DNA of 64,000 nucleotides, from the NCBI RefSeq assembly GCF_900128495.1, contig NZ_LT635801.1, positions 2,411,083 to 2,475,082 of the forward strand, in the 5' to 3' direction. This document shows positions 6,725 through 41,672 of the stretch, piece by piece. The notes under the pieces are model-generated. The model made no database searches. It saw nothing but the letters and a program-made list of their open reading frames with translations, and was not told where the DNA came from. The position numbers and the translations under genes are program-made. The DNA comes from Bacteroides ilei (GTDB lineage Bacteria > Bacteroidota > Bacteroidia > Bacteroidales > Bacteroidaceae). Each line of letters opens with the position of its first letter. Positions within the stretch are counted from its first letter, which is position 1.

Positions 6725-6793
6725 TCCACATATACAGAACGGAAGAAAAAATCATGTTACATGTATCACCCACGCATGTTACATAGATAAGAA

Positions 6794-6826
6794 AAAAGCC
6801 CCCGGGAATTCCTCCCGGGGGCTTTT
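6794..6826 (-). terminator. Intrinsic terminator ending the signalling cluster
   Basis: A perfect 14-bp stem (6794-6807 pairing with 6813-6826) has a 5-base loop and a GC-rich core. On the minus strand it is followed by a T run. It lies 57 bases past the stop of the BACON-domain gene. The A/T flanks are symmetrical, so it could also stop plus-strand transcription. It insulates the signalling cluster from the GH operon. Confidence 0.9.
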
Positions 6827-6882
6827 CCATCTATCATTTTTCATTTTGTCCTGATCACCGGACGACAGGAACCGGCATGCCG

Positions 6883-7545
6883 TCATTTCTTTTTCTTGAA
6901 GAAACCGCCTACTTTGTCCATCACCTTTTCAACATTTTTTCTCTTGTCCTGGTTCACCACGAGATTCACTTCCTTGTCACCGCATTTCACCACAATGACT
7001 CCCGAACGGTCTTCCTCCCCGGTATTCTCTTCGGCTTCTACCGTAAACTTCTTCTCGCTCAGGTAAACCGTAACCCACTCCGGATTGGAAGCGATTTCCC
7101 AGTCGTCATAGTTACACTCCACCTCCACACTCTGGGTAGCCCCTTCCTTGGGCTTCGACTTGAAGTCCAGACGGGTTTCCGACAGACTCAGTTCCACATT
7201 CTTATGAGTTTTCTTTTTTGAAGTCACAGCTGGTTCCGACTGTGTGGTATTCTGGGATTTACTTCCTGAACTGTTTTTCGCACGGATTGCCCTGATATTA
7301 TTGTTACAAATCGCAATCTGATTGTCACATATCTTCTTTTTTTCCGCCGTAGTATAAACAACCTTTGCTGCACGGAATTTCTTGATGGCGGCATTCTGCG
7401 ATGCTATTGTCTGCACCTGTTGCAACTGCTGCCCTTCCATAAACAGTTTGTCCCCGTTCGACTGTGCCACCATACCTGCCGGCACGCAAAGCATCAGGAC
7501 AAAAACCAACATTCTGCAAAATTTCACTAAACTCATAACCTTCAT
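6883..7545 (-). CDS. Exported BACON-domain protein, last gene of the kinase operon
   Basis: A 220-residue protein with a signal peptide (hydrophobic stretch LVFVLMLCVPAGMVAQ). Residues about 30-85 are helical and Gln/Asn/Lys-rich. A Ser/Thr/Lys linker follows at about 90-115. A BACON-type beta-sandwich spans about 117-203 (LSLSETRLDFKSKPKEG, NPEWVTVYLS, GVIVVKCGDKEVNLVVNQD). The C-terminus is strongly basic (GGFFKKKK). BACON domains occur in Bacteroidetes surface and periplasmic proteins, often as spacers or ligand-binding modules. Its ATG overlaps the kinase stop codon as ATGA, so it is translationally coupled to the kinase. M4 is an alternative start. Its role is unknown; a periplasmic partner of the membrane-anchored kinase is inference. 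Confidence 0.85.
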   Translation of the reverse strand: MKVMSLVKFCRMLVFVLMLCVPAGMVAQSNGDKLFMEGQQLQQVQTIASQNAAIKKFRAAKVVYTTAEKKKICDNQIAICNNNIRAIRAKNSSGSKSQNTTQSEPAVTSKKKTHKNVELSLSETRLDFKSKPKEGATQSVEVECNYDDWEIASNPEWVTVYLSEKKFTVEAEENTGEEDRSGVIVVKCGDKEVNLVVNQDKRKNVEKVMDKVGGFFKKKK

Positions 7546-8966
7546 CTATTTTTTTTAAATTCACCTATTGATTCGGCACGCTGGCGGCACGAACCCGCCA
7601 TTTCACTTTCACCCAATACTTCAAGTTGGTCGGCCTGATCCAGCAAATCCAACCGGATGGTATCCAACGCCAGTGAAACCGACGTCATCTTCTCTTCCAG
7701 ATCGGGATATGACACTCCGTACACCGAATCCTGCTCCAGCTTCTGGCGGATGGACTCATAAATGGTATAGGCACTCATCAGTATCTGTTCATAATCGTCC
7801 GTTTCCTTCTTCAGCCCCAGCACCAGCTTCTTGTCGGCTTCATCCTTCAATTCGTTGATGTCAGCCTCGAATTGGGTCTTCTGCTGTTCGAATTCAGCCT
7901 GTCGCGCCAGCTGCTCGGCCTCGTCCTGCCTGCTGTTTACGGCTACCAGGACACCTGCTATCACTACCACCACCACAACGGCCGCCGCCAGTAATATTTT
8001 TTTCTTCTTTGCCGGCATACCCATGCCTCCCGCATTCATGGTTTCCAGCGCCACACGCATCTGGGCACAGGTCTGATAACGCTGCTCCTGCTTCTTCGCA
8101 CAGGCTATGCCTATAATCTCACGCAGGTTCTTGTCTTTGATTACCTTCAGGGGCAGCTTTTCCTTCAGCTGTTTTTCCAGAATCTCATGGCAGGCTCCCT
8201 CAAACGGCGTATGCCCTACAATACACTGGTACAGCAGGATTCCCACGGCATAAATGTCGGTTGTCTGGTTCTGAGCCTTCACATCCCCTATCGCCAGTTC
8301 GGGAGCGGCATATTCAGGCTTTCCCATAAAGCGGCCCGAAACGGTAAGCGGCCTGTCGTTTGTAGTCAGGTTGTTCATCTGCTTGCATATACCGAAATCT
8401 ATCAGTTTGATGTGCCCGTCGGCAGTCACCATGATATTCGACGGATCTATGTCACGATGAATGTATCCGGCGTCATGCAAGGCCATCAGTCCCGAAAGCA
8501 CGTTCACCACCACAATCTTGGCAAAATGTTCCGGATCGTTCCTGAAATCCTGCAGTAACTTCACGGCATAAGCCACCTCTTCACCGTTCCGGTCCTTGGT
8601 CTTCCCTTCCAGTATATCCGAAAGCGAAACGCCGGTAAGCAGTTCACTCACCACATGATAATGTTTCACCACCGCACCGTTCTGAATGGTTTCAGATATC
8701 TCGATAAAGCCCAGCATTTCCACCAGATTATCGTTCCGCAGACGGATGGAAGCCTCTCTCCGCGCCCGTTCGATGGCCTGCGGCGGCAGGTCGTCATACA
8801 GGAATTTAATAGCTACCGGACGCGTGGAACCAGTCTTCTCGTTCACACAGATACCTTTGAACACCTGCCCCATACCGCCCACACCTATCGGCTGGTCGTC
8901 CGAATCCACCTGATAGCAGATCCCGTTACGTCTTTCCGTCTCTCCTTGTATTCTTATCAAAGACAT
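7542..8966 (-). CDS. Membrane-anchored Ser/Thr protein kinase with a periplasmic coiled coil
   Basis: A 474-residue Hanks-type kinase. Visible elements are the glycine loop IGVGGMGQVF (27-36), K54 in VAIKF, helix-C E71, the catalytic loop H170-R171-D172, D190-F191-G192, the APE-like PEYAAPE segment, and the C-lobe DIYAVGILLYQ. The catalytic loop reads HRDIDPSN, so the usual Lys two residues after the catalytic Asp is Asp174. A Lys-led membrane helix lies at about 321-344 (KKKKILLAAAVVVVVVIAGV). A charged, coiled-coil-prone region to the C-terminus probably lies in the periplasm. This resembles PknB-like sensor kinases but without PASTA repeats. It follows a PP2C gene by 25 bases, a common kinase/phosphatase pairing. 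Confidence 0.95.
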   Translation of the reverse strand: MSLIRIQGETERRNGICYQVDSDDQPIGVGGMGQVFKGICVNEKTGSTRPVAIKFLYDDLPPQAIERARREASIRLRNDNLVEMLGFIEISETIQNGAVVKHYHVVSELLTGVSLSDILEGKTKDRNGEEVAYAVKLLQDFRNDPEHFAKIVVVNVLSGLMALHDAGYIHRDIDPSNIMVTADGHIKLIDFGICKQMNNLTTNDRPLTVSGRFMGKPEYAAPELAIGDVKAQNQTTDIYAVGILLYQCIVGHTPFEGACHEILEKQLKEKLPLKVIKDKNLREIIGIACAKKQEQRYQTCAQMRVALETMNAGGMGMPAKKKKILLAAAVVVVVVIAGVLVAVNSRQDEAEQLARQAEFEQQKTQFEADINELKDEADKKLVLGLKKETDDYEQILMSAYTIYESIRQKLEQDSVYGVSYPDLEEKMTSVSLALDTIRLDLLDQADQLEVLGESEMAGSCRQRAESIGEFKKNR

Positions 8967-8991: not shown

Positions 8992-10464
8992 TTATAACTT
9001 TTCCTTTATCTTCTTTAATGTCGCCTGAATTTCCGTCAATACCTCCTGAGCCTTCCGGGTACTTCTGTACAGGCCGTCAGAACCGGGACGGTCTACCAGC
9101 ATGGCCATACCCTCATCGCCAAGCTGATTCCTTATCTTTGCCGTCTCGGAGGCGTATTGCCCTCCGGTCCGTTCATCAAACTGTTCCAACAGCTCCAGAA
9201 TCTTGTTACGGCACTGAAGCTTGGCTTTCGAAATATCCTGCTGTGACGAACGGGCTATTGTCTTCATCTGTTCCAGATGTCCCAGAATCTTATCCAGTAT
9301 CACGGCGGGTGTTTCGGCATCCACCTTTCCTTTGTCCTTAACCTGTTGCTCTTCCGCAACGTCTCTTTTTCCCGATTGTCCAAGTGCTTCCAGTTCTGCC
9401 TTCAATGCTTCCAGCTCATTGCGTAAAGAGTCATTTTCCCGGTCAAGCATTCTTATCAGCCTTTCCGAATCCAGTGTTCCCCCTTCCATCAGTTGGGTAT
9501 AGCGCAGTTCATACGGCTGCAGATGCTCTACCTTACTCACCAGGTCCTTTACCCTATCACGCAATTCACCGTTCTCTTTCCCGTTTCGGATAAAGAGAAA
9601 GACATTCAACACAATGCTTGCCAGCAGAAATACCGACAAGGCACCAAGTATAATCCGAATCTGTCTGTCCATCTTGTCTTTAAGTCTTGAATCCATCATC
9701 GTTTCAATTACCGCTATCGTATGGTTGTCATGATGCCCCCCCTGAGACATTCCTATACGGTCTGTCTCCATATCCAGGTTAGACACCAGCGACTGCATGT
9801 CGGGATAGCCTGTAAAACGCATCTCAAGTTCCTCAGCCGGCATCACTCCCCATATACCGTCGGTACACAATACGAACCTGTCACCTTTTCTGAAAGGCTG
9901 TTCATCGAATTCCGGCGTATGGTTACTGGTACTTCCCAAAGCACGCATAATGACATTCGACTGTGGAGAAGTACGTGCCTCCTCTTCTGTCATCGCCTTG
10001 TTGCGCACCAGTTCGTTCACCAGCGAATGGTCGGACGTACGGAATACAACCTGTCTGCCGCCCCGTATCCGGTAACAGCGGCTGTCGCCCAAATGGGCTA
10101 TTATCGCCGATTCCCCGTTGATAAGGATAGCCACCAGCGTAGAGCCCATACCTCTGAGCTGGGGAACCTCCTCCATCTTGCTGTACAAGGCATCATTGGC
10201 TATGGTAACAGCCTTCTGCAGGGCTTGCCTGCGCGACATCTGCGGACTGCATGATCCGAGCACCCGCATCAGTTCGTTTTTCACGATATAGGATGCGGTC
10301 TTTCCGCCGGGACCTCCGCCCATTCCGTCGCACACCACAACCAGAAAACCCAGCGGAGTATCCATATACCCCCAATCATCCTGGTTCTCCGCCCGGCCTC
10401 CTATCATGGAACTGCCGACACCACGGACAGGGAATCTTTCCGAAATAATCTGAACGGCCGACAT
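8992..10464 (-). CDS. Membrane-anchored PP2C-type Ser/Thr phosphatase
   Basis: A 490-residue protein with an N-terminal PP2C domain (about 15-255). All metal-binding signatures are present: RAENQDD (D29), VCDGMGGG (D46), HLGDSR, CTDG (D203) and HHDNHT (D247, N248). A single membrane helix at about 271-293 (IILGALSVFLLASIVLNVFL) is followed by a long charged coiled coil to the C-terminus, probably periplasmic. PP2C enzymes remove phosphate from Ser/Thr in a Mn/Mg-dependent reaction and usually reverse a neighbouring kinase, here the one 25 bases downstream. It is closely similar over its whole length to the degenerate PP2C at 41665-43137, including the start (VQIISERFPVRGV), so the two are duplicates. 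Confidence 0.95.
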   Translation of the reverse strand: MSAVQIISERFPVRGVGSSMIGGRAENQDDWGYMDTPLGFLVVVCDGMGGGPGGKTASYIVKNELMRVLGSCSPQMSRRQALQKAVTIANDALYSKMEEVPQLRGMGSTLVAILINGESAIIAHLGDSRCYRIRGGRQVVFRTSDHSLVNELVRNKAMTEEEARTSPQSNVIMRALGSTSNHTPEFDEQPFRKGDRFVLCTDGIWGVMPAEELEMRFTGYPDMQSLVSNLDMETDRIGMSQGGHHDNHTIAVIETMMDSRLKDKMDRQIRIILGALSVFLLASIVLNVFLFIRNGKENGELRDRVKDLVSKVEHLQPYELRYTQLMEGGTLDSERLIRMLDRENDSLRNELEALKAELEALGQSGKRDVAEEQQVKDKGKVDAETPAVILDKILGHLEQMKTIARSSQQDISKAKLQCRNKILELLEQFDERTGGQYASETAKIRNQLGDEGMAMLVDRPGSDGLYRSTRKAQEVLTEIQATLKKIKEKL

Positions 10465-10478
10465 AGGTTAAAAAACAA

Positions 10479-11729
10479 TTACTTTTTTATCACAAAGGGG
10501 ATAGCCGTACGGCTCTTGGCGTCATATAACGCGAACATTCCGACCCCGTCTATCTTATACTCAACCTTCGTTGTATTGTTCACACTCGTTTCCAGACTTA
10601 CAGGACGGTAGGACGCATTCACCAGATCCTTGTAGCTGAAACTATGGACTGTTTTCTTTTTCACTACCGATGTGGTCACCTTCACCAGTTGGAAAACTTC
10701 TGTACCAGCCCCGTCAGCACAATTATATTCAACCGTAACCAATGTGGTATTGCCGTCGCCCTTTTGAATGTCCGGATTCTTTCCGGCCGATGCCAATACC
10801 AGTAAATCATCATCTTCAGTAACATTGACGGCAGTCACTTTCTGGCGGTTAACCATGACTTCCCCTGCGGCCAGCAGGACATCATACTTCGGACTGTAGC
10901 GAGGATTGATCTCCTTCCTCACCTCATCAATGTCCGAAACCTTGACGCTCTGGATGGCACCGTCTGCCTGCTGCAGCAGAAAATAATTTTCCGAATCATT
11001 CTTTCCACCGTAATTCTGCTCGATAATGATTCCCTTCATTTCGGTCATACCCTTCTTCAGACGGATTACATCCAACAACTCACTCTGTTCAAACAGGGTC
11101 TGTTCCGGATTGACCGGACGGAACGTATACTTGACCACGTCACCTATCTTGAACGACTGCACCACACCGTTGTCGAGATACAGGCTCAGGGTCGTATCGG
11201 TTTCCCCGGCATACTCTCCTTCCACTTCCTGACCCGTCTTCAGCTTGTAGATACGGTTGATACCCGAAAGTGCAGTCTTCGGACGTTTTTCGCCCCGGAT
11301 GGCTTCCACGTCCTTCCATTGCAGGAAATACGTGCCCGGAGCCATCTCCAGGTATTTCACTGTAGCACCCCGTTCCAGAATCCGTACCTTCATGACCGTC
11401 TTGTCTTTTGTCACGATGTCATGGAGAACAAGCTTGCGTCCATCTCCGGTACCCTCAAAAGCGTCATGCTTCTCTGCCCAGTCAATCCAGGCTTTGTCGA
11501 GCGACTTGATATCATAGGCTCTTCCGTCTGAAATACGCTTCACGTCATCCGCTTTCAGACAGATCAGTGCAAAATCCGACTGGAAAGTAAGGTTTCCCTT
11601 GTCATCCTGTTTCTGTATGTAACCGTTCAGTTCGGAACCATTCTTCAGAATGATCTTCTGGACAACCACTGCCTCTGCCACCTGACAGCAGGCAAGGAAC
11701 ATCCCGAACAAAATTGCCAGTTTCTTCAT
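10479..11729 (-). CDS. Exported protein with three similar beta modules, function unknown
   Basis: A 416-residue protein with a signal peptide (MKKLAILFGMFLACCQVAEA). I do not recognise a named family. Three short segments resemble each other: ILKNGSELNGYIQKQ near the start, KLKTGQEVEGEYAGE in the middle and LKKGMTEMKGIIIEQ later. Each is followed by beta-strand-rich sequence ending in an acidic ISDG/IGDV/VSDI-type turn. The pattern suggests three copies of a small SH3- or Sm-like beta barrel. The last third is beta-rich and ends IPFVIKK. It lies inside the operon, 21 bases after the FHA-trypsin gene and 14 bases before the PP2C gene, and is presumably periplasmic. Confidence 0.75.
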   Translation of the reverse strand: MKKLAILFGMFLACCQVAEAVVVQKIILKNGSELNGYIQKQDDKGNLTFQSDFALICLKADDVKRISDGRAYDIKSLDKAWIDWAEKHDAFEGTGDGRKLVLHDIVTKDKTVMKVRILERGATVKYLEMAPGTYFLQWKDVEAIRGEKRPKTALSGINRIYKLKTGQEVEGEYAGETDTTLSLYLDNGVVQSFKIGDVVKYTFRPVNPEQTLFEQSELLDVIRLKKGMTEMKGIIIEQNYGGKNDSENYFLLQQADGAIQSVKVSDIDEVRKEINPRYSPKYDVLLAAGEVMVNRQKVTAVNVTEDDDLLVLASAGKNPDIQKGDGNTTLVTVEYNCADGAGTEVFQLVKVTTSVVKKKTVHSFSYKDLVNASYRPVSLETSVNNTTKVEYKIDGVGMFALYDAKSRTAIPFVIKK

Positions 11730-11750: not shown

Positions 11751-13283
11751 TTACTTTTTGTAAGGAGTCTCCAAAAGTTCCTTTACATATTTGGCCTTGA
11801 TCCCGTAATTGAATCCCTGGGTAATCTCCACACCCGAGTTCAATACACCTATCAGCATACCTTTGTCGTCAAAGATAGGAGAACCGCTTGCACCATGAAA
11901 CGATGCGGCGTCAAAGCCGAACCGATACTCTGTATCTGCCTGAATGATGTTACCGCCACGTCCAAGTACCTGAAGACCTTTCTCCGACTTGTCGTCCTGC
12001 AGACCGGTTCCGAACGGGAAACCGATGGTATATACATGTTTGCCCACATGCAGCTGTTTGTCATTTACATCCATTGAATCAGTCACGTTGATATAACGGC
12101 AGCCCGAAGGAATCTCTGCCCGGTTCGACTGTACCAAAGCCACGTCATTGTCTATATTGTCACCGGCCGAAAGGACTCTGCAGGTCACGGCATTGTCTGA
12201 TGACAGATACCTGCCCTGAGGTATCAACAGGATATTGTCCAGTACACCCTTCACCTTGATCAATGAAGTATAGGCCGAATACGGAGTGGCCCCGTCACTT
12301 GCCAGGATTCCAAAGAAATCCTTCTGAGCGGCCCATTGGGCGTATTTTTCCTTCAGGGCGGCTTCAAGCCCCTTGATCTGGTCATTTCCCAGCCATGGCT
12401 TTACCACGTGCAGGTTCGTAACCAGCTTACCGTCCTTGGAAATGAAGAAGCCTGTACCCGAATACTGGCCGAAATGCGAAATGATCTCACTGGAATACTG
12501 CTCCGGTACCGACAGGAATTCATTGTTGACACGTACAAATTTCAACGGCAACGGAAAATCTACAGGCAGTTTACTCATATCGACGCCTTCAATAGTCAAT
12601 TCATAATGGTATACCCCGATAAGTAACACCACAGAATTGTTATAACGCGCGTATAGTTGCGAATCATCCAGCTTCGACGAACCGCCGACCCATTTCCAGA
12701 TACCCAGCCCCAGACCGGCCAGAACCACTATGACAGCTGCCACAATCCCGACCGACTTCCAATTGAAACCCGGCCAGTCAAGGCGGTTCATATCCAGCGG
12801 TACTCCGCCGCAAACCACTACGCTTTTCCGCGTAATCGGGCAGGCCGTATTCGGCGCAATCTTACGCCCGTCTACTGTCGTACCGTTCTTGCTGTGGTCA
12901 AATATATAGGTCTTGTTGTTCTTTTCCCGCTTTATGGTGGCATGGTAACGGCTCACGGTAGGCCCCGACAACTGTATGTCATTGTTGAAGTGTGAACCTA
13001 CACCCCATATAGCCTTGTAACGTGAATTGTCTTCCGGCATCGGCACCTGCATCCACTGCAGTTCCACGTCGGCAAAAGTGATGGTATCACCACGCATGAC
13101 CTTCACCGGTTTTCCCGGCTTCACCTGCTGCCCCATTACAAACGTACCGTTGAAACTGCCCTTATCCTCCAGCAGTATGTCTCCGTTATCCAATAAGGTC
13201 AGTTCGGCGTGCAATGCACTAACCTTGTCACTATGCAATACGATATCACAACTTACGTCGCGACCAATCTTTAACAGTCTCAT
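11751..13283 (-). CDS. Tandem-FHA, membrane-anchored trypsin-like protease
   Basis: A 510-residue fusion. FHA domain 1 (about 1-80) shows IGRDVSCDI, SALH and GSFNGTFV. FHA domain 2 (about 90-165) shows VGSHFNNDI, SRYH and HSKNGTTV. A membrane helix lies at about 178-198 (VGIVAAVIVVLAGLGLGI). The C-terminal half is an S1-type protease with a complete triad: H292 in VTNLHVV, D380 in NDVALV and S466 in HGASGSPI. FHA domains bind phosphothreonine peptides. The helix places FHA in the cytoplasm and, by inference, the protease in the periplasm, as in DegS/HtrA-like proteases. No PDZ is seen in this protein. A phosphorylation signal inside the cell could thus gate proteolysis outside it; that link is inference. 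Confidence 0.93.
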   Translation of the reverse strand: MRLLKIGRDVSCDIVLHSDKVSALHAELTLLDNGDILLEDKGSFNGTFVMGQQVKPGKPVKVMRGDTITFADVELQWMQVPMPEDNSRYKAIWGVGSHFNNDIQLSGPTVSRYHATIKREKNNKTYIFDHSKNGTTVDGRKIAPNTACPITRKSVVVCGGVPLDMNRLDWPGFNWKSVGIVAAVIVVLAGLGLGIWKWVGGSSKLDDSQLYARYNNSVVLLIGVYHYELTIEGVDMSKLPVDFPLPLKFVRVNNEFLSVPEQYSSEIISHFGQYSGTGFFISKDGKLVTNLHVVKPWLGNDQIKGLEAALKEKYAQWAAQKDFFGILASDGATPYSAYTSLIKVKGVLDNILLIPQGRYLSSDNAVTCRVLSAGDNIDNDVALVQSNRAEIPSGCRYINVTDSMDVNDKQLHVGKHVYTIGFPFGTGLQDDKSEKGLQVLGRGGNIIQADTEYRFGFDAASFHGASGSPIFDDKGMLIGVLNSGVEITQGFNYGIKAKYVKELLETPYKK

Positions 13284-13319: not shown

Positions 13320-13934
13320 TTATCCACGGCGGCGGAAAGTTCCATTCTCTTTTGCAGGTTGCTCTTCTTTCTGCCCATCCACTTTTTTCTGTTCGTCTGC
13401 CCGTTTTTGCTGTACGGCGGCCTTTCTCTTCCGTTCAGCTTCCGCCTTCCGGGCACGGTCGATGGAATCGGCACGGGCTTGCCGGATAGAATCCTGCTCT
13501 TTCTTCTCCCGCTCTTCCTGTTCCAGCCTCTTGGCTGCGGCATTGACCGAAATACTGTCAACCTGCATTCCGGCCGGCTGCGGATCATCTCCTCCTGTCA
13601 TCGCCCTTATTCCGAAAAAGGCTCCAACCACCACAATCAGTCCCAGCACGGCAAAAGCTACATAACGCAAGACCCCTACCGGATTGGGTACCACCCCCCA
13701 GTCCAGACGGGCCACATGCGCAAACGAAACGTTGTCCTTACGGGTCACCGGAACCGCCACGTTCGGATTGATCCGGATGCCGTTCACATACGTACCGTTA
13801 TGGCTCTGGTCTGTAATGGTCATCTTCCCCGACGGATATACATGGAGGACTGCGTGACGACGGCTCACCACATCCGTACTGTCATTTATCACAATATCAC
13901 AATTGGTATCTCTACCGATAGAATATACTTTCAT
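13320..13934 (-). CDS. FHA-domain membrane protein with a charged C-terminal tail
   Basis: A 204-residue protein. The N-terminal FHA domain (about 1-78) is canonical: IGRDTNCDI, SRRH at 24-27 and QSHNGTYVNG. A membrane helix lies at about 88-108 (VLRYVAFAVLGLIVVVGAFF). The rest is a Lys/Glu/Arg-rich segment with coiled-coil character (KRLEQEEREKKEQDS onward) ending in FRRRG. It lies 11 bases after a PP2C gene and 36 bases before the FHA-trypsin gene. A likely role is as a membrane adaptor recruiting phosphorylated partners; no enzymatic domain is visible. Confidence 0.92.
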   Translation of the reverse strand: MKVYSIGRDTNCDIVINDSTDVVSRRHAVLHVYPSGKMTITDQSHNGTYVNGIRINPNVAVPVTRKDNVSFAHVARLDWGVVPNPVGVLRYVAFAVLGLIVVVGAFFGIRAMTGGDDPQPAGMQVDSISVNAAAKRLEQEEREKKEQDSIRQARADSIDRARKAEAERKRKAAVQQKRADEQKKVDGQKEEQPAKENGTFRRRG

Positions 13935-13945
13935 AGCAATCAGTT

Positions 13946-14971
13946 TTATTCGTTAGATTTGTTCAGTTTCATTTTCTTCAGTACGGCAATGGAATCTTTC
14001 AGCTGTCTGACAGAATCTTTATATACCGAAACCTTCTGCTCCAGGGTGCAGACGCTGTCGGCGGGAACGGGCGCCCCGAATGTTCCTCCCCGGCCTGCCT
14101 GTGCCACATTCAGCACAATACTGGCAGCACAAACGACCGACAGGGCCCCCACTATCAATTTCGTTTTCTTTGACATCTTTGATTTAAGTATAGAATTCTT
14201 TTTAGTTTCAACTACAGCAAGTGTCAGGTTATCATGGCCGCCACCCGAATTACGGCCCAGGTTATCTACAACGGTGGCCATATCATCTACCAGCGCTCCC
14301 AGTACACAGTTGGTCCGTGTAACCAGTTTCAGAAGTTCCTTTTCGGGCATCGACCCGTGTACACCGTCGGTGCACAGCATGAAACGGTCACCTTTTTCAT
14401 AAGGAAGCACTGCGGTATCCACCTCCACGTCGGGACGTATGCCCAGTGCCCTTGTAATGATATTCGACTGGGCCGATAAACGAGCCTGCTCCTCGGTGAT
14501 TACCTTCGAACGTACCAGTTGCGCCACTACCGAATGGTCGCCCGTACGGAAAACCCTCGAATGTCCACGCAACTGGTATATCCGGCTGTCACCCACATGT
14601 GCCACATAGGCCGCCTGTCTGGAAAGGAGAAGCACCGTAGCGGTGGTACCCATTCCGCGCAGTTCAGGATATTCCTGCCCCTGTTGCCAGATAGCCCGGT
14701 TCGCCCGCTGTACTGCGCCGGCTATAAGGGCAGTCATATCTTCCTCCCCGTCGGCTTCCTCCACTCCGGCCATGATTTCCCGCACAGCCATAGACGAGGC
14801 CGTTTTCCCTGCAGGACCGCCTCCCATACCGTCGCACACCGTTACAAGAAAACCGTGGCGTGTCTGCAGTGCCCCATACGAATCCTGGTTTTCTGTCCGT
14901 CCTCCTATCCTCGATTCGGCAAAGCCGACGGCCAGCTCATTATCTTCCGTATGTAATTGTTCTAGTTCCAT
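13946..14971 (-). CDS. Membrane-anchored PP2C-type phosphatase, partner of the adjacent kinase
   Basis: A 341-residue protein with a full set of PP2C motifs: GRTENQDS (D30), VCDGMGGG (D47), HVGDSR, CTDG (D202) and GGHDNLT (D247). A membrane helix at about 271-290 (LIVGALSVVCAASIVLNVA) leads to a short C-terminal tail (about 50 residues) with a coiled-coil-like end (VRQLKDSIAVLKKMK). It overlaps the end of the upstream kinase gene by 10 bases, so the two are tightly coupled. It should dephosphorylate Ser/Thr residues modified by that kinase. Confidence 0.95.
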   Translation of the reverse strand: MELEQLHTEDNELAVGFAESRIGGRTENQDSYGALQTRHGFLVTVCDGMGGGPAGKTASSMAVREIMAGVEEADGEEDMTALIAGAVQRANRAIWQQGQEYPELRGMGTTATVLLLSRQAAYVAHVGDSRIYQLRGHSRVFRTGDHSVVAQLVRSKVITEEQARLSAQSNIITRALGIRPDVEVDTAVLPYEKGDRFMLCTDGVHGSMPEKELLKLVTRTNCVLGALVDDMATVVDNLGRNSGGGHDNLTLAVVETKKNSILKSKMSKKTKLIVGALSVVCAASIVLNVAQAGRGGTFGAPVPADSVCTLEQKVSVYKDSVRQLKDSIAVLKKMKLNKSNE

Positions 14972-15879
14972 AACTTGTTCATTATTTTCTGAAGCAAAGA
15001 CAGCTCAGGCTGCAGTGCCTCCTGAATCGCGCGTTTGAACTCCTGTGCGGTCTGATAACGTTTCTTCTGGTCTTTTTCCGTAGCCTTCCAGATTACCTGC
15101 ATCAGCCTTTTCGGAACCGCCGTACTGTCGGGAAGCTTCATTTTCATCTGACGGGTCAGCGTCTCCGCTTCCGAAGCGCATGCCATCGGATTTTTCCCCG
15201 TAAGCAGCTCATAAAAGGTAAGTCCCAGCGCATAGATGTCGGTCGTAGCGTTGATGTCTGCCTCCTCCCCGTTCTGCCCCCTCAGCAACTGTTCGGGAGC
15301 CGCATACTCGGGGGTTCCTATAAACCCGAACGAAGAGAACTTGTTGCCGCCGTTCATCCGGGCAATCCCCAGATCCATCAAACGCACGTTGGTCCCGTTC
15401 TCCACCATGATGTTCGACGGCTTCACGTCACGGTGTACCACCCCCCGCGAATGGACATATGCCAGGGCGTCCAACACATAGGCCACCACCTTACAGATCT
15501 TATCCACCCGCCCGGGCGACTGCGCGAAACGTCTCACGTAAACGTCCGAATCCTCTCCCTGTACATAATGGCTTAGGATAAAGATCGGGCCCACATCCGG
15601 AGCGTATTCACAATAGCCTACCATCTCTACCAGGTTGGGATGACGGAAAGTCAGTGAGGCTTCCTGGCGGGCGCGTTCCCTGATCTGCCTGTTGTTGGCA
15701 TAGAAATCCTTTACACGCTTTACGGCCACCAGTTCACCGGTACGGCAGCGGTAACCCAGATAGACATCGCCCATGGCACCACTGCCCAGCGGCTCTTCCA
15801 TCGGATTATAACAATACCATTCCCCCCTTACCCAAAGATAAAGGTATGGATCGTTCGCTCTTTGCACTACTGTACGCAT
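14962..15879 (-). CDS. Cytoplasmic Ser/Thr protein kinase
   Basis: A 305-residue Hanks-type kinase with little outside the catalytic domain and no membrane helix. Visible are the glycine loop LGSGAMGDVY (31-40), K54 in VAVKRV, helix-C E73, the catalytic loop HRDVKPSN (H149-R150-D151), a DLG in place of DFG (D169), GTPEYAAPEQ and TDIYALGLTFYELLTG. The DLG variant keeps the metal-binding Asp and is common in active kinases. The N-terminus reads MRTVVQRA, which resembles KRTVIQGL at the start of the FHA protein encoded just upstream. This may be a phosphosite or docking motif (see findings). The gene lies 28 bases after the FHA gene and overlaps the PP2C gene. Confidence 0.96.
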   Translation of the reverse strand: MRTVVQRANDPYLYLWVRGEWYCYNPMEEPLGSGAMGDVYLGYRCRTGELVAVKRVKDFYANNRQIRERARQEASLTFRHPNLVEMVGYCEYAPDVGPIFILSHYVQGEDSDVYVRRFAQSPGRVDKICKVVAYVLDALAYVHSRGVVHRDVKPSNIMVENGTNVRLMDLGIARMNGGNKFSSFGFIGTPEYAAPEQLLRGQNGEEADINATTDIYALGLTFYELLTGKNPMACASEAETLTRQMKMKLPDSTAVPKRLMQVIWKATEKDQKKRYQTAQEFKRAIQEALQPELSLLQKIMNKLWN

Positions 15880-15907: not shown

Positions 15908-16735
15908 TCAGAATCCCATGGTTCCGCCTTTGTTTCCTCCCGAGAATGATCCATCCATACCAACCGTACCACGGCCGGCACCACCCGGCTCACTGCCTGT
16001 TGTGCTGCCTCCGTTGAAATGCGGAGGGACAGGCCCGAAATTCCCCGGACGGGTATAACCGCTCCGGGCCGGCCCGTATGGTTCTTCTTCCTCTTCAGGC
16101 TCAGTTTCTACCGGTATGAAGTTGGGAGCAACCGACAAGCCCAATGTATGCGGATCTACCAGAATCAGGTAAAGCTCGTAATTGTCGCCTATGGTAATGA
16201 CATCACCGTTGAAACATTCCTCGGCCGAGAAACCCAGGCTGTGCCCGTTCAGCATCGTCCCGTTTGTAGAACGGGCGTCACTGATGGATGCAATCACCTT
16301 GTCGGGATTCTTCATCTTGCGTACCACCAGTACCGCATGATCGGCCGAAACAGTGCCTTCCAGCAGCTGGATGTCGCACGACGGATCCTTACCTATCGTG
16401 TTCTGCCCCATCTGCAAAGGCCAGAACTCACCGGCCAATGTACGTGACACTGAATAAAGGAAACCCACTACAGGCTTTCCCGAATTCTTGAACTTGCGTA
16501 CCGGATCATTCGGCTGGGCAGAAACACTACCCCCTTGTTGTCCGGCATAGCCGGAATCATTACGTGAATTCGGAGCCGGACTCCCCATTCCCGGCACATA
16601 AGTACCACGTCCGTTTCCGGCCGGACGCTCCCTCCGTGAATAAAAGCCGGAATTTCCACCTCCGTTGTTCTGATTGCCGTATTGAGGCGAATCATCAGGC
16701 TCCAAGCCCTGAATTACAGTTCGTTTCTGAGACAT
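15908..16735 (-). CDS. Soluble FHA-domain protein, first gene of the kinase operon
   Basis: A 275-residue protein without a signal peptide or membrane helix. The N-terminal 80 residues are Gly/Asn/Ser/Pro-rich and disordered, starting MSQKRTVIQGLEPDD. The FHA domain spans about 90-195, with IGKDPSCDI (Lys in place of the usual Arg), SADH at 130-133 and STNGT at 156-160. The tail is acidic (ETEPEEEEEP) and then Gly/Pro-rich. The layout recalls GarA/FhaA-type proteins, where a threonine near the N-terminus is phosphorylated and bound by the protein's own FHA domain. T6 in KRTVIQ is the obvious candidate. It heads the operon ending at the terminator at 6794-6826. Confidence 0.92.
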   Translation of the reverse strand: MSQKRTVIQGLEPDDSPQYGNQNNGGGNSGFYSRRERPAGNGRGTYVPGMGSPAPNSRNDSGYAGQQGGSVSAQPNDPVRKFKNSGKPVVGFLYSVSRTLAGEFWPLQMGQNTIGKDPSCDIQLLEGTVSADHAVLVVRKMKNPDKVIASISDARSTNGTMLNGHSLGFSAEECFNGDVITIGDNYELYLILVDPHTLGLSVAPNFIPVETEPEEEEEPYGPARSGYTRPGNFGPVPPHFNGGSTTGSEPGGAGRGTVGMDGSFSGGNKGGTMGF

Positions 16736-28605: not shown

Positions 28606-30975
28606 CTACATTCCGTCTATCAGGATGAAGGCGTCATAGTAGCGGGGTTTCCCGTATGTCTTCTTCACTGTCAGGTCGGGCAGCTGTGCCCGGCGGTACC
28701 TCTTTTCGGTGACGGCTGTCCGCAGGGTTTCCCGGGCATGGAAGAACGCGTCGTGCAGACTCTCCCCCCGGTCGAGGTTGGCCGTCAGGTTCCGCATCAG
28801 AATCGCGGTGGCCTGGTCGTCCACTTCCCACAGACTTGCCACCACGGCCCGTACCCCCGCCGTCTTCAGTCCGCGCTGCAGCCCCGACACACCGTCGGCA
28901 GTCACATACCCCAGTCCCGACTGGCAGGCCGAGAGCACCACCAGGTCTACGTCCGAGAGGTCGAGCGACGCCAGTTCCCGTGCCGAGAGCACCCCGTCCA
29001 GACTGGCCGGATTGAAGTCCCTGTCGTTCAGGTTGGTCTCCGCACCCGCCAGATACAGGCAGGTCCTCGACAGCTGCTCGTCGGTAGCCAGAGGCCGGAT
29101 GTCGGTCCCTGCCGTCTCCGCGTCGGGGAATGTCCCGTGCGTGGCGATGTGCACCAGAGGGTACCTCCCCATCAGCCGGCGCACCGCCGCTTCCGAAGCC
29201 GAGACATCGGTCAGCAGGGTATCCCGCTTCCCTTCGCCCCGCAGGGCAGCTATGCTGTCCACTTCCGCCAGCGACCCTTCCAGGTAAGGCAGACCCGCAC
29301 CCGCGGCAGCCATGGCGGCGTATGCCACCTCGTCGTTCCCTTCCGTACCGTCTCCGTCATCAGCGGTCTTGTAGTCCACCCCGCCGCACAGCAGCATCGC
29401 CTCCGTGCGCACCGCCGGCCGCTTCTCCACCAGCATCCGCGTAGACGTCAGGCGGTAAAATTTCCGGTCCTTCAGGGCATCCGGCAGCAGGTATTCCACG
29501 GCCAGCAGGTGAAAAATCCCGTCGGCGGCGAAATACACCGAGGCGGCACCGTCCAGCGCCTCCACCAGCTGCCTGTTCCATATCTTCCCGGCCAGCACAC
29601 TGTCGGCATACAGCAGGTCCTTCCCTTCGTGCTCCGTCGATGCCAGCGCCTCCCCGACGGTCGTCCCGCCGTCCAACCGGAGCGATGTCAGCTCATCCAG
29701 CGCGCCCACCTCCACAAACACGGGAGCCGGAGCCTTCCTGCCCAGCACCAGCGCACCCAGCCGGCTCTTCCCCGCCTTTCCGTAGGCGATGAACTCCACG
29801 GCGGCCGACGACGCAGGCAGGGCTGCCCGTACCTTCTTCCAGTCCACCCTTACCGCCGACAGGGCCCCGGCGCGCTGCCGCTCCGTCATGCCGGGAGCGA
29901 ACACACGCCCCATCTGCAGGAGCACCGCCTTGCTGAACAGGGCCACGTCATACAGCAGACCCGGATCCTTGTCCTCCAGCCGGTAGCAGTCGGTCACGAA
30001 AGGCTGTTCGGCCATCCAGAACTGTTCCCGCTGCGAGGCACTCATGGCCACAAACTGCCGGTCCACATACTTCCTCGCCACCGCAAGGTATTCCTTATAA
30101 TACGCCAGAGCCCGGGCGTCATACCTGCCCGTAGCATCGTATTCCAGCATCAGCACCTTGGCAGCCTTGCGCAGCGCCTCCGCCAGCATGCGGCTGTCGT
30201 TCTCTTTTCTGAAGAAGGAAACCACCTCCTCCATCACCTCCCGCGCATCGGCATACCGCCCCATGCGCGCCAGGCAGAGCGCCCGTTGCGACTCGATCTC
30301 CCGGCGTTCCTGCAGGCTTCCCTGCACCCGTGCGGCGGTCCCGAACCGCCTGCCCGCCAGGATGGAATCAAGCTGTGCCAGCGCTTCGGCGTAACGCTCC
30401 TGCCTGTAATACAGCTGTGCCAGATCATCCCGTACGGCATCCGCATGATCGAATCCGGCATTGGGGGTAAGAGCCGCCTGCAGGCGTTCTTCCGACCGCC
30501 GGTAGTCGCCCGCCAGAAAATACATGCAGCCTTCCACCCGGGCCAGCTCGGCCTCATAGCCTTCCGTAAGCGCCTCATTACCGAACGCACGTGTAGCGAG
30601 CGCTTCGCGCAGCTCTCCCGCCACCTCGCGCATATCGGCGTAAAGCCCCAGCTTATACGCCACCTCGGCACGGCTCTTCACCGCCGGCCAGTAAGGAAAA
30701 CGGAACTCACCGTCGCCCAGTCCGGCCACCGTAATCCCGGCAGCGTCCATCGCACGGTCCATCATCCGGGCCACTGTTCCGAACGCAGCATACGCATCCA
30801 GATACTCCTTCCGGTCGTTCAGGTCGTACGCCTCCAGGTAGCGGTCGGTCACCGCATCGGCAAACACCCTCTCCTGCGCCCCCGTACCGGCAGCCGCCGC
30901 CAGCAGGGCAACAAGGACCGACAGTCTGTAAATAGTGTGGCATATCCTTTTCATACGGTATCCTCCTTCCGTCAT
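28606..30975 (-). CDS. Exported TPR-like/CHAT-domain protein (caspase-related peptidase fold)
   Basis: A 789-residue protein. A signal peptide (MKRICHTIYRLSVLVALLAA) starts at residue 8. Helical repeats of TPR type fill about 35-330 (AYKLGLYADMREVAGELREA, ALAQLDSILAGR). The CHAT domain fills the last 380 residues. Its catalytic dyad is visible: H613 in LVHIATHG and C684 in LSACQSGLG, followed by GVSGLQRGLKTAGVRAVVASLW. CHAT domains are separase/caspase-like cysteine peptidases, known from HetF and TPR-CHAT effectors. The ATG at 30975 overlaps the previous stop as ATGA. The ATG at 30954 has a GGAGG sequence just upstream and gives a more usual signal peptide, so it is a strong alternative start. 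An exported CHAT protein is unusual. Confidence 0.93.
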   Translation of the reverse strand: MTEGGYRMKRICHTIYRLSVLVALLAAAAGTGAQERVFADAVTDRYLEAYDLNDRKEYLDAYAAFGTVARMMDRAMDAAGITVAGLGDGEFRFPYWPAVKSRAEVAYKLGLYADMREVAGELREALATRAFGNEALTEGYEAELARVEGCMYFLAGDYRRSEERLQAALTPNAGFDHADAVRDDLAQLYYRQERYAEALAQLDSILAGRRFGTAARVQGSLQERREIESQRALCLARMGRYADAREVMEEVVSFFRKENDSRMLAEALRKAAKVLMLEYDATGRYDARALAYYKEYLAVARKYVDRQFVAMSASQREQFWMAEQPFVTDCYRLEDKDPGLLYDVALFSKAVLLQMGRVFAPGMTERQRAGALSAVRVDWKKVRAALPASSAAVEFIAYGKAGKSRLGALVLGRKAPAPVFVEVGALDELTSLRLDGGTTVGEALASTEHEGKDLLYADSVLAGKIWNRQLVEALDGAASVYFAADGIFHLLAVEYLLPDALKDRKFYRLTSTRMLVEKRPAVRTEAMLLCGGVDYKTADDGDGTEGNDEVAYAAMAAAGAGLPYLEGSLAEVDSIAALRGEGKRDTLLTDVSASEAAVRRLMGRYPLVHIATHGTFPDAETAGTDIRPLATDEQLSRTCLYLAGAETNLNDRDFNPASLDGVLSARELASLDLSDVDLVVLSACQSGLGYVTADGVSGLQRGLKTAGVRAVVASLWEVDDQATAILMRNLTANLDRGESLHDAFFHARETLRTAVTEKRYRRAQLPDLTVKKTYGKPRYYDAFILIDGM

Positions 30976-32120
30976 TTTCCCGGGTTATGGTTGATAATCA
31001 CAAACGCCATGTTCTTTCCCGAAGTGTTCTTCAGCGTCAGCCTGAACCGGTCCTTCCGGGTCACCTTCCCGTCCAGCTGCACATAACACACCCCGTCCTT
31101 CACCGTAGCCGAAGAGAACTTCCTGCCGTCTTTCGTCACCTCCGCACCGAACGTGGCCGAAGCCTCATACGGCACAATGGCAAACCGCTGCAGGCCCTCC
31201 CGGCCCGTAATCTCATAATTCACCGTAGCACCCTTCTTCACCGTAATCTCGATGAACGAGTACCGGTAGCGCGCGTCCTGCCCGTTGCGGAACCTCCCGC
31301 CGGTATTCACCGCCCCGCCCTGCCTCCGGGCAATCCGGTAGCCGATGTCGTTGATGCCGAACATGTCTACAGGGTCTTTCGACGTACATTCCCCCTGCCG
31401 GTCGATGTCTATCTCGTCCATCAGCGTCCATTCCATGTCGTACAGCAGCTCACGCTCCACCCGGACGGTGTTGGCAGGCATCCGCAGCTCCTTGCACCTC
31501 CGCACCAGCGCCTGCATCTCCGCCGTCACTCCCGTCTGCGCCTGCAGCACAAGCGGCATGAAAGTCATCAGCAGGAAAAGCGCCACAGTCACCATCTCCT
31601 CGGGCCAGAACCCCACGAGCGACGAGGCATACGCCTTCCCGCCCGTATTGGTGAGCCGCCTGGCGGGACACACCTTCGCGGCAGCTGCTTCACGGGCCGC
31701 CATCAGGATCTCCTCCATCGGAGGCCTCGCCTGCGGTTCATAAGCCAGGCACCGGTACACCAGGTCGCTCAACCTGCGGCTGCAGTGCGCCGACCCCATG
31801 TGAGGCACCTCCGTCCGTGCCGTCTGGTTCCTTCCCCCCATGCCGTCGAACACATGCATGCCCGTCACGGCATAGAACGCCAGGGCGCCCAGGCTCCATA
31901 CCGCAGCGGCGGCACCCTCCTTCTCCGGAGCAGCGAACGGAGCGTCCGTCTCCCCGCTTCCGGCATCCGCCGACAAGGCGATGCGGTCGTCCTCCACCAC
32001 GATGTCCGCGGCCGAGAACGCCGCCCTGCCATGCTGCAGCCAGCTTCCGGCCACACATTCCATCAGGGTCCAGACGGCCTTCTCCGTCATATATCCGGCT
32101 ATATGGTCCAGTGTAATCAT
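30972..32120 (-). CDS. Degenerate kinase C-lobe, membrane helix and exported beta domain (pseudokinase-like)
   Basis: A longer frame exists, but the ATG at 32120 overlaps the upstream stop as ATGA and gives a 382-residue protein. Residues 1-145 read like a kinase C-lobe without an N-lobe: AVWSLGALAFYAVTG (73-87) matches the DxWSLGxxxYxxxTG helix, and RRLSDLVYRCLAYEPQARPP (115-134) matches the Cys/Arg-Pro end of the fold. The glycine loop, the VAIK lysine and the HRD and DFG residues are missing; GRAAFSAADI and SADAG stand at the corresponding places. A membrane helix lies at about 176-193. The exported part (about 195-382) is beta-rich and ends in a PPC-like sandwich (DRFRLTLKNTSGKNMAFVII). 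It probably acts as a scaffold or receptor, not an enzyme. Confidence 0.75.
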   Translation of the reverse strand: MITLDHIAGYMTEKAVWTLMECVAGSWLQHGRAAFSAADIVVEDDRIALSADAGSGETDAPFAAPEKEGAAAAVWSLGALAFYAVTGMHVFDGMGGRNQTARTEVPHMGSAHCSRRLSDLVYRCLAYEPQARPPMEEILMAAREAAAAKVCPARRLTNTGGKAYASSLVGFWPEEMVTVALFLLMTFMPLVLQAQTGVTAEMQALVRRCKELRMPANTVRVERELLYDMEWTLMDEIDIDRQGECTSKDPVDMFGINDIGYRIARRQGGAVNTGGRFRNGQDARYRYSFIEITVKKGATVNYEITGREGLQRFAIVPYEASATFGAEVTKDGRKFSSATVKDGVCYVQLDGKVTRKDRFRLTLKNTSGKNMAFVIINHNPGK

Positions 32121-33502
32121 CTTCTGTATGTTATTGAATCGTCCATCAATCCTCCATGTGCGCGCAGCAGGTGCACCTCGGTTACGGGAACCGCCCAGAA
32201 CACCCCCTGTTTGGCCATCCCGTCGGCCTTCGACACGATGCCTATCACCTTGATCCGGTTGCCCGTACGCGCCACCACAGGCCCGCCCGAATTTCCCGGG
32301 TTGACCGGCGCCATCATCTGGATGCATCCGCGCAGGTTCTCCCCCTTGCCGTCAAACTCCAGGTGCTGGCTGTTTCCGTACACCTTCACACACAGTTCGT
32401 CGGCGTTGTTGTCGTTCACCGGGAAACCGATCACGGCAATCTCCTTGTCGGCCTGGCGGTCAAAACGCTTCAGGTCCTCCAGCGATGCCAGCTCCAGGTT
32501 GCCCGTAATGCCCCCTTCCGCCTCCACATAAGCAAAGTCGCCCAGCTCCATGTCGCGGCGGTTGGCCAGCGGCATGATGGTGCGCCAGTATATCGGTTCC
32601 TTCTCCGTCCCCAGACGCAGCACCTTGTCGCGCGTCTTGTTGAAACGGAAGTCGGTAGAATACAGGTAGAAAGTCTCCAGTCCGTTGCTGATCACGCAGC
32701 GCGCCTTCACCCCGTAGGCATCCGTGCCCTGCGTCCGGTTCCTCGTCTCCGCTTCGGCGGCCATCCTCACGGCGGGCGGCATCTTCACGTCGAAGCCGGT
32801 CCCGTCCCATTTCTCGTCGGTAATCCAGGGCTCCACACAGTGCCGTGCGGTGACAAAGAGCCCCTCGTCGGTCAGGAAGCACGTACCCGAAGCCGGCACC
32901 TCCAGCGCCACCGCCTCCAGCACCTCCTGCCACGGCCCCCCTGCCACGGCCGTATCGTGCACCAGGTACACCGAATCGACGGTGATGCGGTAAATGCTCC
33001 GGTCGAACACGTCCAGGTTCTCCTGCCGCAGCGGGTTCCTTCCCCGTCCGGTAAACACGGCCACCAGCGCCACCGCCAGAGCCGCCGCCACGGCCGCCAG
33101 CATGGCATACTGCATACGGCGTCCCTGCACCCTTTCCCTGTACACCAGTCCCTTGCGTGCGTCATACTCACCGTCGCGGCACACCACGAAATCCAGCCGG
33201 GTACGCCCGTTGTCCGTCACCACCGTAATACCGTCGCCTCCCGCCAGCCTCCGGCACACCTGCAGCGGCGTCCCGTTCACCAGCACACTGTAGCAGTCGG
33301 TCCGCTTCACGATGATCCACCCCTTCCCGTCGGGATCGGGCAGCACCGACGCCATCACCTCCGGCTCAAACCCGTCCGAAGCGTGTATGTACACGTCGCA
33401 CGAAGGCGACTGGCCGATGTCTACGGGCTTCTGTCCGCAGAACACCACGTCGCCCACCTGCTTCTTCAGCGGCGAATTACGGTATATCAGCTTGTAATAC
33501 AT
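32117..33502 (-). CDS. FHA-like, membrane-anchored trypsin-like protease
   Basis: A 461-residue protein. The N-terminal ~110 residues look like an FHA fold with partly eroded motifs (VDIGQSPSCDVYIHASD, DCYSVLVNGTPL); the SxxH signature is not evident. A membrane helix lies at about 132-151 (YAMLAAVAAALAVALVAVF). The C-terminal protease has H221 in LFVTARHCV, a candidate Asp at D322 in GDFAYV and S405 in PGNSGGPVV, followed by a typical HtrA-like end. The layout matches the tandem-FHA protease at 11751-13283, so the cluster encodes two such proteins. It overlaps the RyR-domain gene by 16 bases and the pseudokinase gene by 4. Confidence 0.88.
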   Translation of the reverse strand: MYYKLIYRNSPLKKQVGDVVFCGQKPVDIGQSPSCDVYIHASDGFEPEVMASVLPDPDGKGWIIVKRTDCYSVLVNGTPLQVCRRLAGGDGITVVTDNGRTRLDFVVCRDGEYDARKGLVYRERVQGRRMQYAMLAAVAAALAVALVAVFTGRGRNPLRQENLDVFDRSIYRITVDSVYLVHDTAVAGGPWQEVLEAVALEVPASGTCFLTDEGLFVTARHCVEPWITDEKWDGTGFDVKMPPAVRMAAEAETRNRTQGTDAYGVKARCVISNGLETFYLYSTDFRFNKTRDKVLRLGTEKEPIYWRTIMPLANRRDMELGDFAYVEAEGGITGNLELASLEDLKRFDRQADKEIAVIGFPVNDNNADELCVKVYGNSQHLEFDGKGENLRGCIQMMAPVNPGNSGGPVVARTGNRIKVIGIVSKADGMAKQGVFWAVPVTEVHLLRAHGGLMDDSITYRR

Positions 33503-41227: not shown

Positions 41228-41570
41228 AAGTATTTTTATAGCTCCTTCAGTTCCCCAGCAGCATTTCATTTATAATAAGAAACGTGGAACTGCAATGCAT
41301 CTTGTATGCAATTATAAATTTTTCCAATTACTAATTACAAGATAAACATAACGCCTCTTTTTTCATATGTATTAGATATAACTTTACGTATACAGACACA
41401 AAAATATATAATTTATTTAACAAACAATCATCTCCATGATATTTTTTTACACCTATATACATTTAAATAAATTCCATATTTTTACTAAATCCAAAAACAT
41501 TTCCAAATATCATCAGTGAATGACCTGACAGGCGTATTTCATATCAGAATACGTATCCGCATTTCTCATT
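41228..41570. other. AT-rich intergenic region upstream of the lipoprotein gene
   Basis: About 340 bases without a convincing gene. It should hold the promoter of the lipoprotein/caspase operon. One minus-strand TAnnTTTG match (TATTTTTG at 41406-41399) is seen, but its nearest TTTG is only 14 bases upstream, so I do not call a promoter. Nothing else is evident. Confidence 0.5.
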
Positions 41571-41646: not shown

Positions 41647-41672
41647 TTCCGTATAATCAAAATTTTATTTAC
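41647..41672. repeat. 26-bp direct repeat, copy 2
   Basis: Identical to 35734-35759. Here it spans the last codons and stop of the degenerate PP2C gene (stop at 41665-41667). A degenerate version of the -7 region follows at the right distance on the minus strand (TAAATCTTG), suggesting a decayed copy of the 35.7-kb promoter. Confidence 0.9.

Follow-up and report, generated by a model that had tools for sequence, protein, structure and literature searches.

A tandem FHA, membrane-helix and protease protein encoded with kinases and phosphatases in Bacteroidota, with two protease forms on one FHA module

Introduction

In a stretch of 64,000 nucleotides from Bacteroides ilei (the whole of which is called the window below), one open reading frame encodes two FHA domains, a membrane helix and an HtrA-like protease domain in a single chain, which is referred to here as FFP (FHA-FHA-TM-protease). 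The gene lies in a tightly spaced group of kinase, PP2C phosphatase and further FHA genes, the FHA-bearing form is accompanied by kinase and phosphatase genes at every locus examined, and its conserved FHA half is joined at the helix to either of two distantly related protease forms, A (that of the window) and B. With moderate confidence, we read FFP as an inside-out phospho-switch with an exchangeable protease output, one arm of a membrane phospho-signalling operon, the direction being the weakest step of this reading. More tentatively, FFP may belong to a transmembrane system general to Bacteroidota, with a conserved cytoplasmic chassis of kinases, phosphatases and FHA proteins acting on a periplasmic protease that can be exchanged by a swap at the helix; intracellular phosphorylation would thereby lead to selected cuts in the envelope.

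Phospho-signalling and envelope proteolysis are each well known, and a single chain joining them would, if true, be a direct wire between the two. The presence of kinases, phosphatases and FHA proteins on one piece of DNA makes the idea that phosphorylation commands periplasmic proteolysis directly testable, and the natural exchange of proteases provides ready-made chimeras, in which near-identical FHA parts are carried on two different proteases. No description of an FHA-TM-protease chain was recognised in the literature searched, which lay mostly outside subscription journals.

Architecture, predicted fold and operon

The reading frame of FFP is exact, from an ATG at 13283 to a stop codon ending at 11751 on the minus strand. 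By Pfam, two stretches match FHA (PF00498), with 3.6e-33 and 114.3 bits for the protein as a whole (cut-off 20.7), and Trypsin_2 follows behind them (2.9e-12); residues 177-195 form the only strong hydrophobic stretch, with a mean Kyte-Doolittle value of 2.57 (the next best 19-mer reached 1.12). An earlier note, made from the sequence without database searches, had proposed this order of domains with the helix at about 178-198, and had named H292, D380 and S466 as the catalytic triad; both proposals are borne out. The triad codons are CAC (12410-12408), GAC (12146-12144) and AGC (11888-11886), and the three residues are invariant in 18 of 18 rows of an alignment of FFP with 17 relatives from other genomes, in which the same domain order was sought and which align over both FHA domains, the helix and the protease. 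When further FHA-bearing and FHA-less relatives were included, the triad was intact in 39 of 39 rows (that of the window among them), in forms A and B alike, so no loss was seen in homologues. A chance ORF or a wrong frame is ruled out by the 17 relatives, which align over both halves of the protein. Cys368 (window 12180-12182), which lies just before the catalytic Asp, is kept in 37 of the 39 rows. A disulfide between C368 and C395 was considered as proof of a periplasmic location and dropped, as C368 is the sole Cys behind the helix in two loci (L032 and L033).

A model of FFP predicted from ten sequences (mean pLDDT 81.2, pTM 0.55) contains two strand-rich regions at the places expected for FHA domains and, after a long helix, a C-terminal half that is again rich in strands, in which residues 301-326 form a helix between the catalytic His and Asp. 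The C-terminal half of this model matches HtrA/Deg proteases (best Foldseek value 2.4e-11), and the best VIA-align match is HhoA (Z 19.9, rmsd 2.4 over 167 residues), in agreement with the trypsin-like protease that had been called from the sequence. By its own predicted model (pLDDT 78.5), the form B protease is HtrA-like too, matching Deg2 in VIA-align with Z 22.4 and rmsd 2.4 over 191 residues. The VIA-align matches concern the protease half of both models only, the FHA half being assessed by sequence alone. No PDZ domain was found in FFP by Pfam at E 0.01, and the chain ends 30 residues past Trypsin_2; lacking a PDZ domain, FFP is called HtrA-like here and not a member of the HtrA family.

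FFP is the fifth of nine minus-strand genes that run from 16735 to 6883 with gaps of at most 37 bases or overlaps (Table 1), a spacing from which a single transcript would be expected. Its eight companions are two Ser/Thr kinases, two PP2Cs, two further FHA proteins, a 416-residue protein and a BACON protein. The GR position of the FHA protein encoded by the first gene varies among its relatives, and the 416-residue protein stands behind FFP in 15 of the 16 loci that share the gene order of the window (type I), in several of them with other genes between. Such extra genes were seen in L132 (7622-12400), L131, L133, L114 and L120. Those of L132 encode WG-repeat, OMP-barrel and S41 peptidase proteins (by Pfam) and a lipoprotein-like protein, and that of L120 a WG-repeat protein (also by Pfam); the inserts of L131, L133 and L114 were judged by size and order only, and one inserted protein of L114 had no Pfam match.

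Table 1. Features of FFP and of its operon in the window, in the direction of the genes
Feature	Position	Strand	Basis
FHA protein, first operon gene; GK for GR	15908..16735	-	Pfam, motif reading
Ser/Thr kinase; K54, HRD and DLG motifs present	14962..15879	-	Pfam, motif reading
PP2C with membrane helix 272-290 and C-terminal tail; metal-ligand motifs present	13946..14971	-	Pfam, motif reading
Single FHA-TM protein; canonical GR, SRRH, NG	13320..13934	-	Pfam, motif reading
FFP (FHA-FHA-TM-protease), 510 aa, protease form A of two	11751..13283	-	ORF, Pfam, relatives, trees
FHA1 of FFP, residues ~5-70; GR, SxxH and NG all present	13074..13271	-	Pfam, motif reading
FHA2 of FFP, residues ~95-155; SxxH and NG present, GS instead of GR	12819..13001	-	motif reading
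Single membrane helix of FFP, residues 177-195 (175-200 in model)	12699..12755	-	hydropathy, predicted model
HtrA/S1C-like trypsin-fold protease domain of FFP, residues 276-480	11844..12458	-	Pfam, predicted fold, triad
Secreted 416-aa protein, signal-like start	10479..11729	-	sequence; Pfam scan
Second PP2C with TM 271-289 and long C-terminal tail; metal-ligand motifs present	8992..10464	-	Pfam, motif reading
Ser/Thr kinase with TM 324-342 and C-terminal tail	7542..8966	-	Pfam
BACON-domain protein, signal-peptide-like start, last operon gene	6883..7545	-	Pfam
Terminator-like hairpin after last gene, 17 pairs, 9 G-C; consensus match only	6792..6828	-	hairpin search

Distribution and linkage to kinase and phosphatase genes

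Matches to FFP at 1e-15 or better were found in 20 of 301 genomes of the family, representing 9 of 30 genera; the FHA-bearing form occurs in 18 of the 301, and G033 and G038 have the FHA-less relative only. In a phylum-wide draw, 16 of 395 genomes matched the profile at 1e-20, comprising seven with the FHA-bearing form, five with FHA-less protease relatives and four with FHA-only matches in longer frames; five of the seven FHA-bearing genomes belong to one family (f18) of the same phylum and another class than the window. Loci were also obtained from Prevotella (L030 and L031), Alistipes (L032), Dysgonamonadaceae (L033) and Paludibacteraceae (L034). The comparison set consists of 39 distinct loci, 28 that bear FHA, counting the window, and 11 that encode a relative of the same protease with no FHA domain, with L035 and G210, which are the same record, counted once. 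Left out of the counts were L039-L109 (71 of 80 loci), whose matches lie mostly or wholly in the FHA region, such as L039 with several FHA and kinase matches and no protease match, and L040 with FHA domains and an ABC transporter, as well as L157-L164, which are FHA-only matches or second pieces.

In the phage collection, nothing matched FFP at 1e-10. The plasmid collection gave one FFP record (Phocaeicola massiliensis OY726067.1), which was not counted; its plasmid label is doubtful because its FFP is 100% identical in the alignment to that of G080, which sits on a 3.1 Mb contig. Three FHA-less loci (L139, L140 and L141) have an N-terminal part of about 500 residues before the TM helix and the same protease; in L140, the one of them scanned, this part had sub-cut-off Pfam matches to Ig-like (Big_1) and CarboxypepD_reg domains.

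In the DNA at hand, both a kinase and a PP2C gene were found within 3 kb of FFP in 28 of 28 FHA-bearing loci, compared with 0 of 11 FHA-less loci, in some of which the flanks are short (337 bases on the left of L036, 454 on the right of G449). The search was made by tblastn at 1e-5 with the kinases and PP2Cs of the window as queries, and among the FHA-bearing loci the farthest nearest kinase was 2870 bases away and the farthest nearest PP2C 1772 bases. The corresponding Fisher p of 6e-10 is not to be taken at face value, since a single change of the FHA label accounts for its distribution on the protease tree and the 28 and 11 loci are thus not 39 independent cases. The linkage is nevertheless kept across three gene arrangements, namely type I (16 loci), type II (7 loci, in the order FFP, FHA, PP2C, kinase, kinase) and that of f18 (5 loci). 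Wherever the alignment of a kinase copy reaches these positions, HRDxxxxN retains its Asp and Asn, and DxG its Asp and Gly; several copies differ in the Arg of HRD, and the Lys is unaligned in some distant pairs. The Asp ligands of PP2C are kept in all covered copies except that of L124, which has Glu for one Asp. These co-encoded kinases and phosphatases accord with a link of FFP to phosphorylation.

Orientation in the membrane

No signal peptide precedes FHA1, and there is only one strong hydrophobic stretch in FFP, from which an N-in/C-out orientation, that of a type II membrane protein, would be expected. When the lipobox rule for recognising lipoprotein starts was applied by eye, 4 of the 11 FHA-less relatives (L038, G336, G356 and G449, the last three of which are close kin on the protease tree) were seen to begin with lipobox or lipobox-like signal sequences, suggesting that the protease family is probably exported in other settings. 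In 16 of 28 proteins compared, the N-side flank of the helix carries the higher net charge; in 6 the two flanks are equal, and in 6 the N side has the lower value. The charge rule is thus a weak guide to topology, and in the FFP of the window, where the flanks are balanced, it gives no guidance.

Conservation falls at the helix. Mean identity in five membrane proteins encoded by the type I operon was 53-63% before the helix versus 17-32% behind it (in brackets, the pairs in which the part before the helix is the better conserved): 55% versus 32% in FFP (119 of 120 pairs), 53% versus 23% in the TM kinase (85 of 85), 63% versus 19% (10 of 10) and 57% versus 17% (90 of 90) in the two PP2Cs, and 60% versus 21% in the single-FHA protein (120 of 120). 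This pattern fits an operon with a constant inner and a varied outer side, although conservation alone is no proof of topology. The earlier note had placed the protease in the periplasm and the FHA domains inside, and this placement is favoured by the missing signal peptide, the single helix, the lipoprotein-like relatives and the drop in conservation, while the charge rule lends it little.

Two protease forms on one FHA module

The protease tree (39 rows) divides the type I proteases between two distinct clades. Form A comprises the window, G300, L030, G233, G196, G013, G168 and L032 (support 95/92), and form B comprises L031, G193, G242, G251, G272, G062, G080 and G256 (support 100/100), with the type II, f18 and FHA-less rows on the form A side of the form B branch. 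The clearest pair is that of the two Prevotella loci, L030 and L031, which share 90% identity in the FHA part versus 21% in the protease part, the fall being located at residues about 166-225, that is, in the membrane helix and what follows it. Over all 64 A-B pairs, the mean identity is 54% in the FHA part and 24% in the protease part (maximum 29%), compared with 57% and 47% for A-A pairs and 58% and 38% for B-B pairs.

The tree of the FHA part does not separate the two forms. The best tree implies three changes of form, two of which are forced by well-supported branches, and form B as one clade was rejected (p 6e-14). A second FHA tree, built without five rows (G256, L032, L034, G207 and G210) and flagged by the program for meeting long branches, again implied three changes, two of them forced, and rejected the one-clade hypotheses for B (p 4e-5) and for A (p 0.0015). 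On the protease tree, holding L030, G233 and L031 together was rejected as well (p 6e-59). All these p-values are too good, as the groups were named after the first tree had been seen. As read from the sequences, the histories of the FHA and protease halves are discordant, with the break at the helix; in the other membrane proteins of the operon, the divergence behind the helix does not track the A and B forms. The nucleotide identity of L030 and L031 in the FHA part is only about 65-83%, with no fresh recombination scar, so the exchange would be old.

That absence of a visible fresh scar would also suit a different history, in which both forms go back to ancient paralogues, neighbours in the same operon before they were differentially lost. 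In its favour too, type I as one clade on the protease tree was not rejected at 0.05 (p 0.054). However, paralogy has to face the rejections of form B as one clade on both FHA trees and of the joint L030, G233 and L031 group on the protease tree, and it would also need the FHA halves to have been evened out between the copies, and we therefore regard it as improbable beside an exchange of proteases.

Phosphate reading by the FHA domains

GR, SxxH and NG are named as FHA motifs in a passage of PMC1262709. According to the earlier note, both FHA domains of FFP would read phosphothreonine; this claim goes too far, since the motifs are complete in FHA1 of the window but FHA2 has lost the Arg of GR. 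The same loss was found in FHA2 of all 16 type I proteins (Ser in 7, Thr in 8, Lys in 1), while FHA1 keeps the Arg in 11 of 16 and has Ser in the other five, in which neither FHA domain has it. Phosphate reading by FFP thus cannot be general, and these five type I proteins may themselves be without it. Among type II proteins, Arg is present in 5 of 7 FHA1 domains (Lys in 2) and in 5 of 7 FHA2 domains (Lys in 1, Ser in 1), and in f18 it is present in 5 of 5 FHA2 domains and in 4 of 4 readable FHA1 domains, to which G605 can be added when its frame is read from upstream of the first ATG. In the single-FHA membrane protein of type I, none of the motif residues (G, R, S, H, N and G) has been lost, either in the window or in any of the 15 relatives. 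A division of labour may be suggested for type I, in which the FHA-TM protein and often FHA1 of FFP would read phosphate and FHA2 would be structural.

The losses in FHA2 and in the five proteins devoid of the Arg would also be expected if the FHA pair were only a degenerate or constitutive scaffold, which docks an always-active envelope protease at the kinase-phosphatase complex independently of phosphorylation, and a second TM-anchored protease of the window (32117-33502) has a still more degenerate FHA-like part. Such a role appears unlikely to us, given that FHA1 of the window retains GR, SxxH and NG, that most type I FHA1 domains retain GR, and that both domains retain it throughout the readable f18 proteins.

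Proposed mechanism

In the phospho-switch that we prefer, the tandem FHA module would lie in the cytoplasm and the HtrA-like protease, without PDZ, in the periplasm. The kinases and PP2Cs of the operon would set the phosphorylation state of the operon partners, and FHA1, together with the neighbouring single-FHA membrane protein, would bind a phosphorylated partner, with FHA2 mainly structural or dimer-forming. Assembly of this kind could cluster or order the protease domains across the membrane, by which envelope cleavage would be switched on or positioned. Oligomer state and allostery are common switches of HtrA proteases, which would make clustering a natural trigger for FFP. The two distant protease forms would have been fitted to one conserved FHA chassis, and candidate partners on the outside include the 416-residue protein, the WG-repeat, OMP-barrel and S41 peptidase proteins of L132 and the WG-repeat protein of L120.

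The direction of signalling may also be reversed. In that case, the periplasmic protease and the tails of the kinase and phosphatases would sense the envelope and cleave partners or FFP itself, with the FHA domains relaying the event inward, as in membrane-anchored site-1-like proteases. One kinase, the PP2Cs and the single-FHA protein do have C-terminal parts behind the helix that could be sensed or cut, envelope-type genes stand between FFP and its usual neighbour in L132 and L120, and membrane-anchored HtrA proteases such as DegS are known sensors. On the other hand, FHA domains are generally modules for binding and not for output, PDZ, the usual sensor of HtrA proteases, is not found in cis in FFP by Pfam, and a Pfam scan of all nine operon proteins detected no transcription or sigma factor family. 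Signalling from outside to inside is accordingly judged rather unlikely. A last alternative is that the protease-like domain serves as a ligand-binding sensor. This role has been suggested for the domain at the C-terminus of RsgI9 from Clostridium thermocellum: a section of PMC12203970 states that its protease-like part is reported to bind polysaccharide, and its S1C-NTF2 structure (7sjy) is a structural neighbour of both the form A and the form B model. For FFP we consider it very improbable, because the triad is kept in every row even though the two forms average so low an identity.

Comparison with known systems

Among known proteases, those of the HtrA/Deg group (S1C) are closest to FFP, with which they share the trypsin fold (as the best structural matches) and the His-Asp-Ser order; DegS in addition has a single N-terminal membrane anchor. 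FFP differs from them by the lack of PDZ and by about 170 residues of tandem FHA domains before the helix, and it is far below the NCBIfam cut-offs for degP_htrA_DO (37 of 416 bits) and DegS (19.8 of 423). FFP is thus like a membrane-anchored HtrA protease in which the PDZ sensor is replaced by FHA domains before the helix and which is joined to a kinase-PP2C-FHA cassette. MarP (Rv3671c) of mycobacteria is also a membrane-tethered periplasmic trypsin-fold protease, with several membrane helices and no known FHA domain. One match of the form B model is the MarP structure 3k6y (Z 20.2, albeit at rmsd 10.6), but FFP reached only 19.7 bits against the 250 of the MarP family model (NCBIfam NF033740).

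Bacterial modules of FHA, kinase and PP2C genes include the mycobacterial PknB region and PpkA-PppA-Fha of T6SS. The likeness to them lies in the adjoining kinase, PP2C and FHA genes, a clustering that a passage of PMC1262709 notes in M. tuberculosis, whereas FFP is distinguished by a protease behind the helix and fell below the cut-offs for FhaB (50.3 of 125 bits) and TagH (TIGR03354; 43.4 of 120, from the FHA part only).

Predicted conflict systems offer another comparison. Part of PMC7159879 describes trypsin-like and caspase-like peptidases in VMAP/MoxR-vWA and other such systems, with FHA occurring sporadically among the effectors, and in another predicted conflict system trypsin-like peptidases fused to TM segments together with a NucA nuclease. 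STAND, TIR and CHAT genes lie near the operon of the window as well, but the protease of FFP sits behind a membrane helix, and neither MoxR nor vWA was found by Pfam among 22 cluster proteins (small ORFs at 37991-38800, 38807-39439 and 40670-41269 lay outside the scan). A plain T6SS or VMAP part was rejected as an identity for FFP, as TagH was below cut-off and MoxR and vWA were absent from the scanned proteins. Of the 25 cluster proteins, 10 were run through PADLOC, which placed none confidently in a defence system; its matches were a kinase to PD-T4-6 and other kinase models, FFP to RT-Protease_XI (4.6e-10, in the protease part), and a SIR2-TIR protein with weak TIR/SIR2 matches.

RsgI9 resembles FFP in its cytoplasmic regulatory domain, its one TM segment and its S1C-like domain outside, and differs in having an anti-sigma N-terminus where FFP has FHA domains; a section of PMC12203970 reports ligand binding and autocleavage for it.

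Other genes of the window

The window holds several further minus-strand genes of note. The second TM-anchored trypsin-fold protein mentioned above (32117-33502) has an N-terminal part that looks like a worn-out FHA domain, with GQ for GR, no SxxH and NG kept (hhalign 69%, 4.4e-5), and matches to it at 1e-10 were found in 6 of 301 family genomes, its own included. A third PP2C (41665-43137) is by sequence a copy of the one at 8992-10464 with metal-ligand motifs lost (CTDG to CTGG, GHDN to YPGS), and is likely a pseudophosphatase. In the product of 30972-32327, likely a membrane pseudokinase, the match to the kinase profile is limited to the C-lobe and lies below the cut-off (3e-4); a hydrophobic stretch and one more domain come after it. 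Between 22198 and 30975, an nSTAND1 ATPase with a long C-terminal half, a SIR2-TIR protein and a TPR-CHAT protein are encoded close together on the same strand, which looks like an immune or conflict module adjoining the operon. A caspase-like (C14) protein with a signal-peptide-like start (3.6e-5) is encoded at 39452-40663, also on the minus strand.
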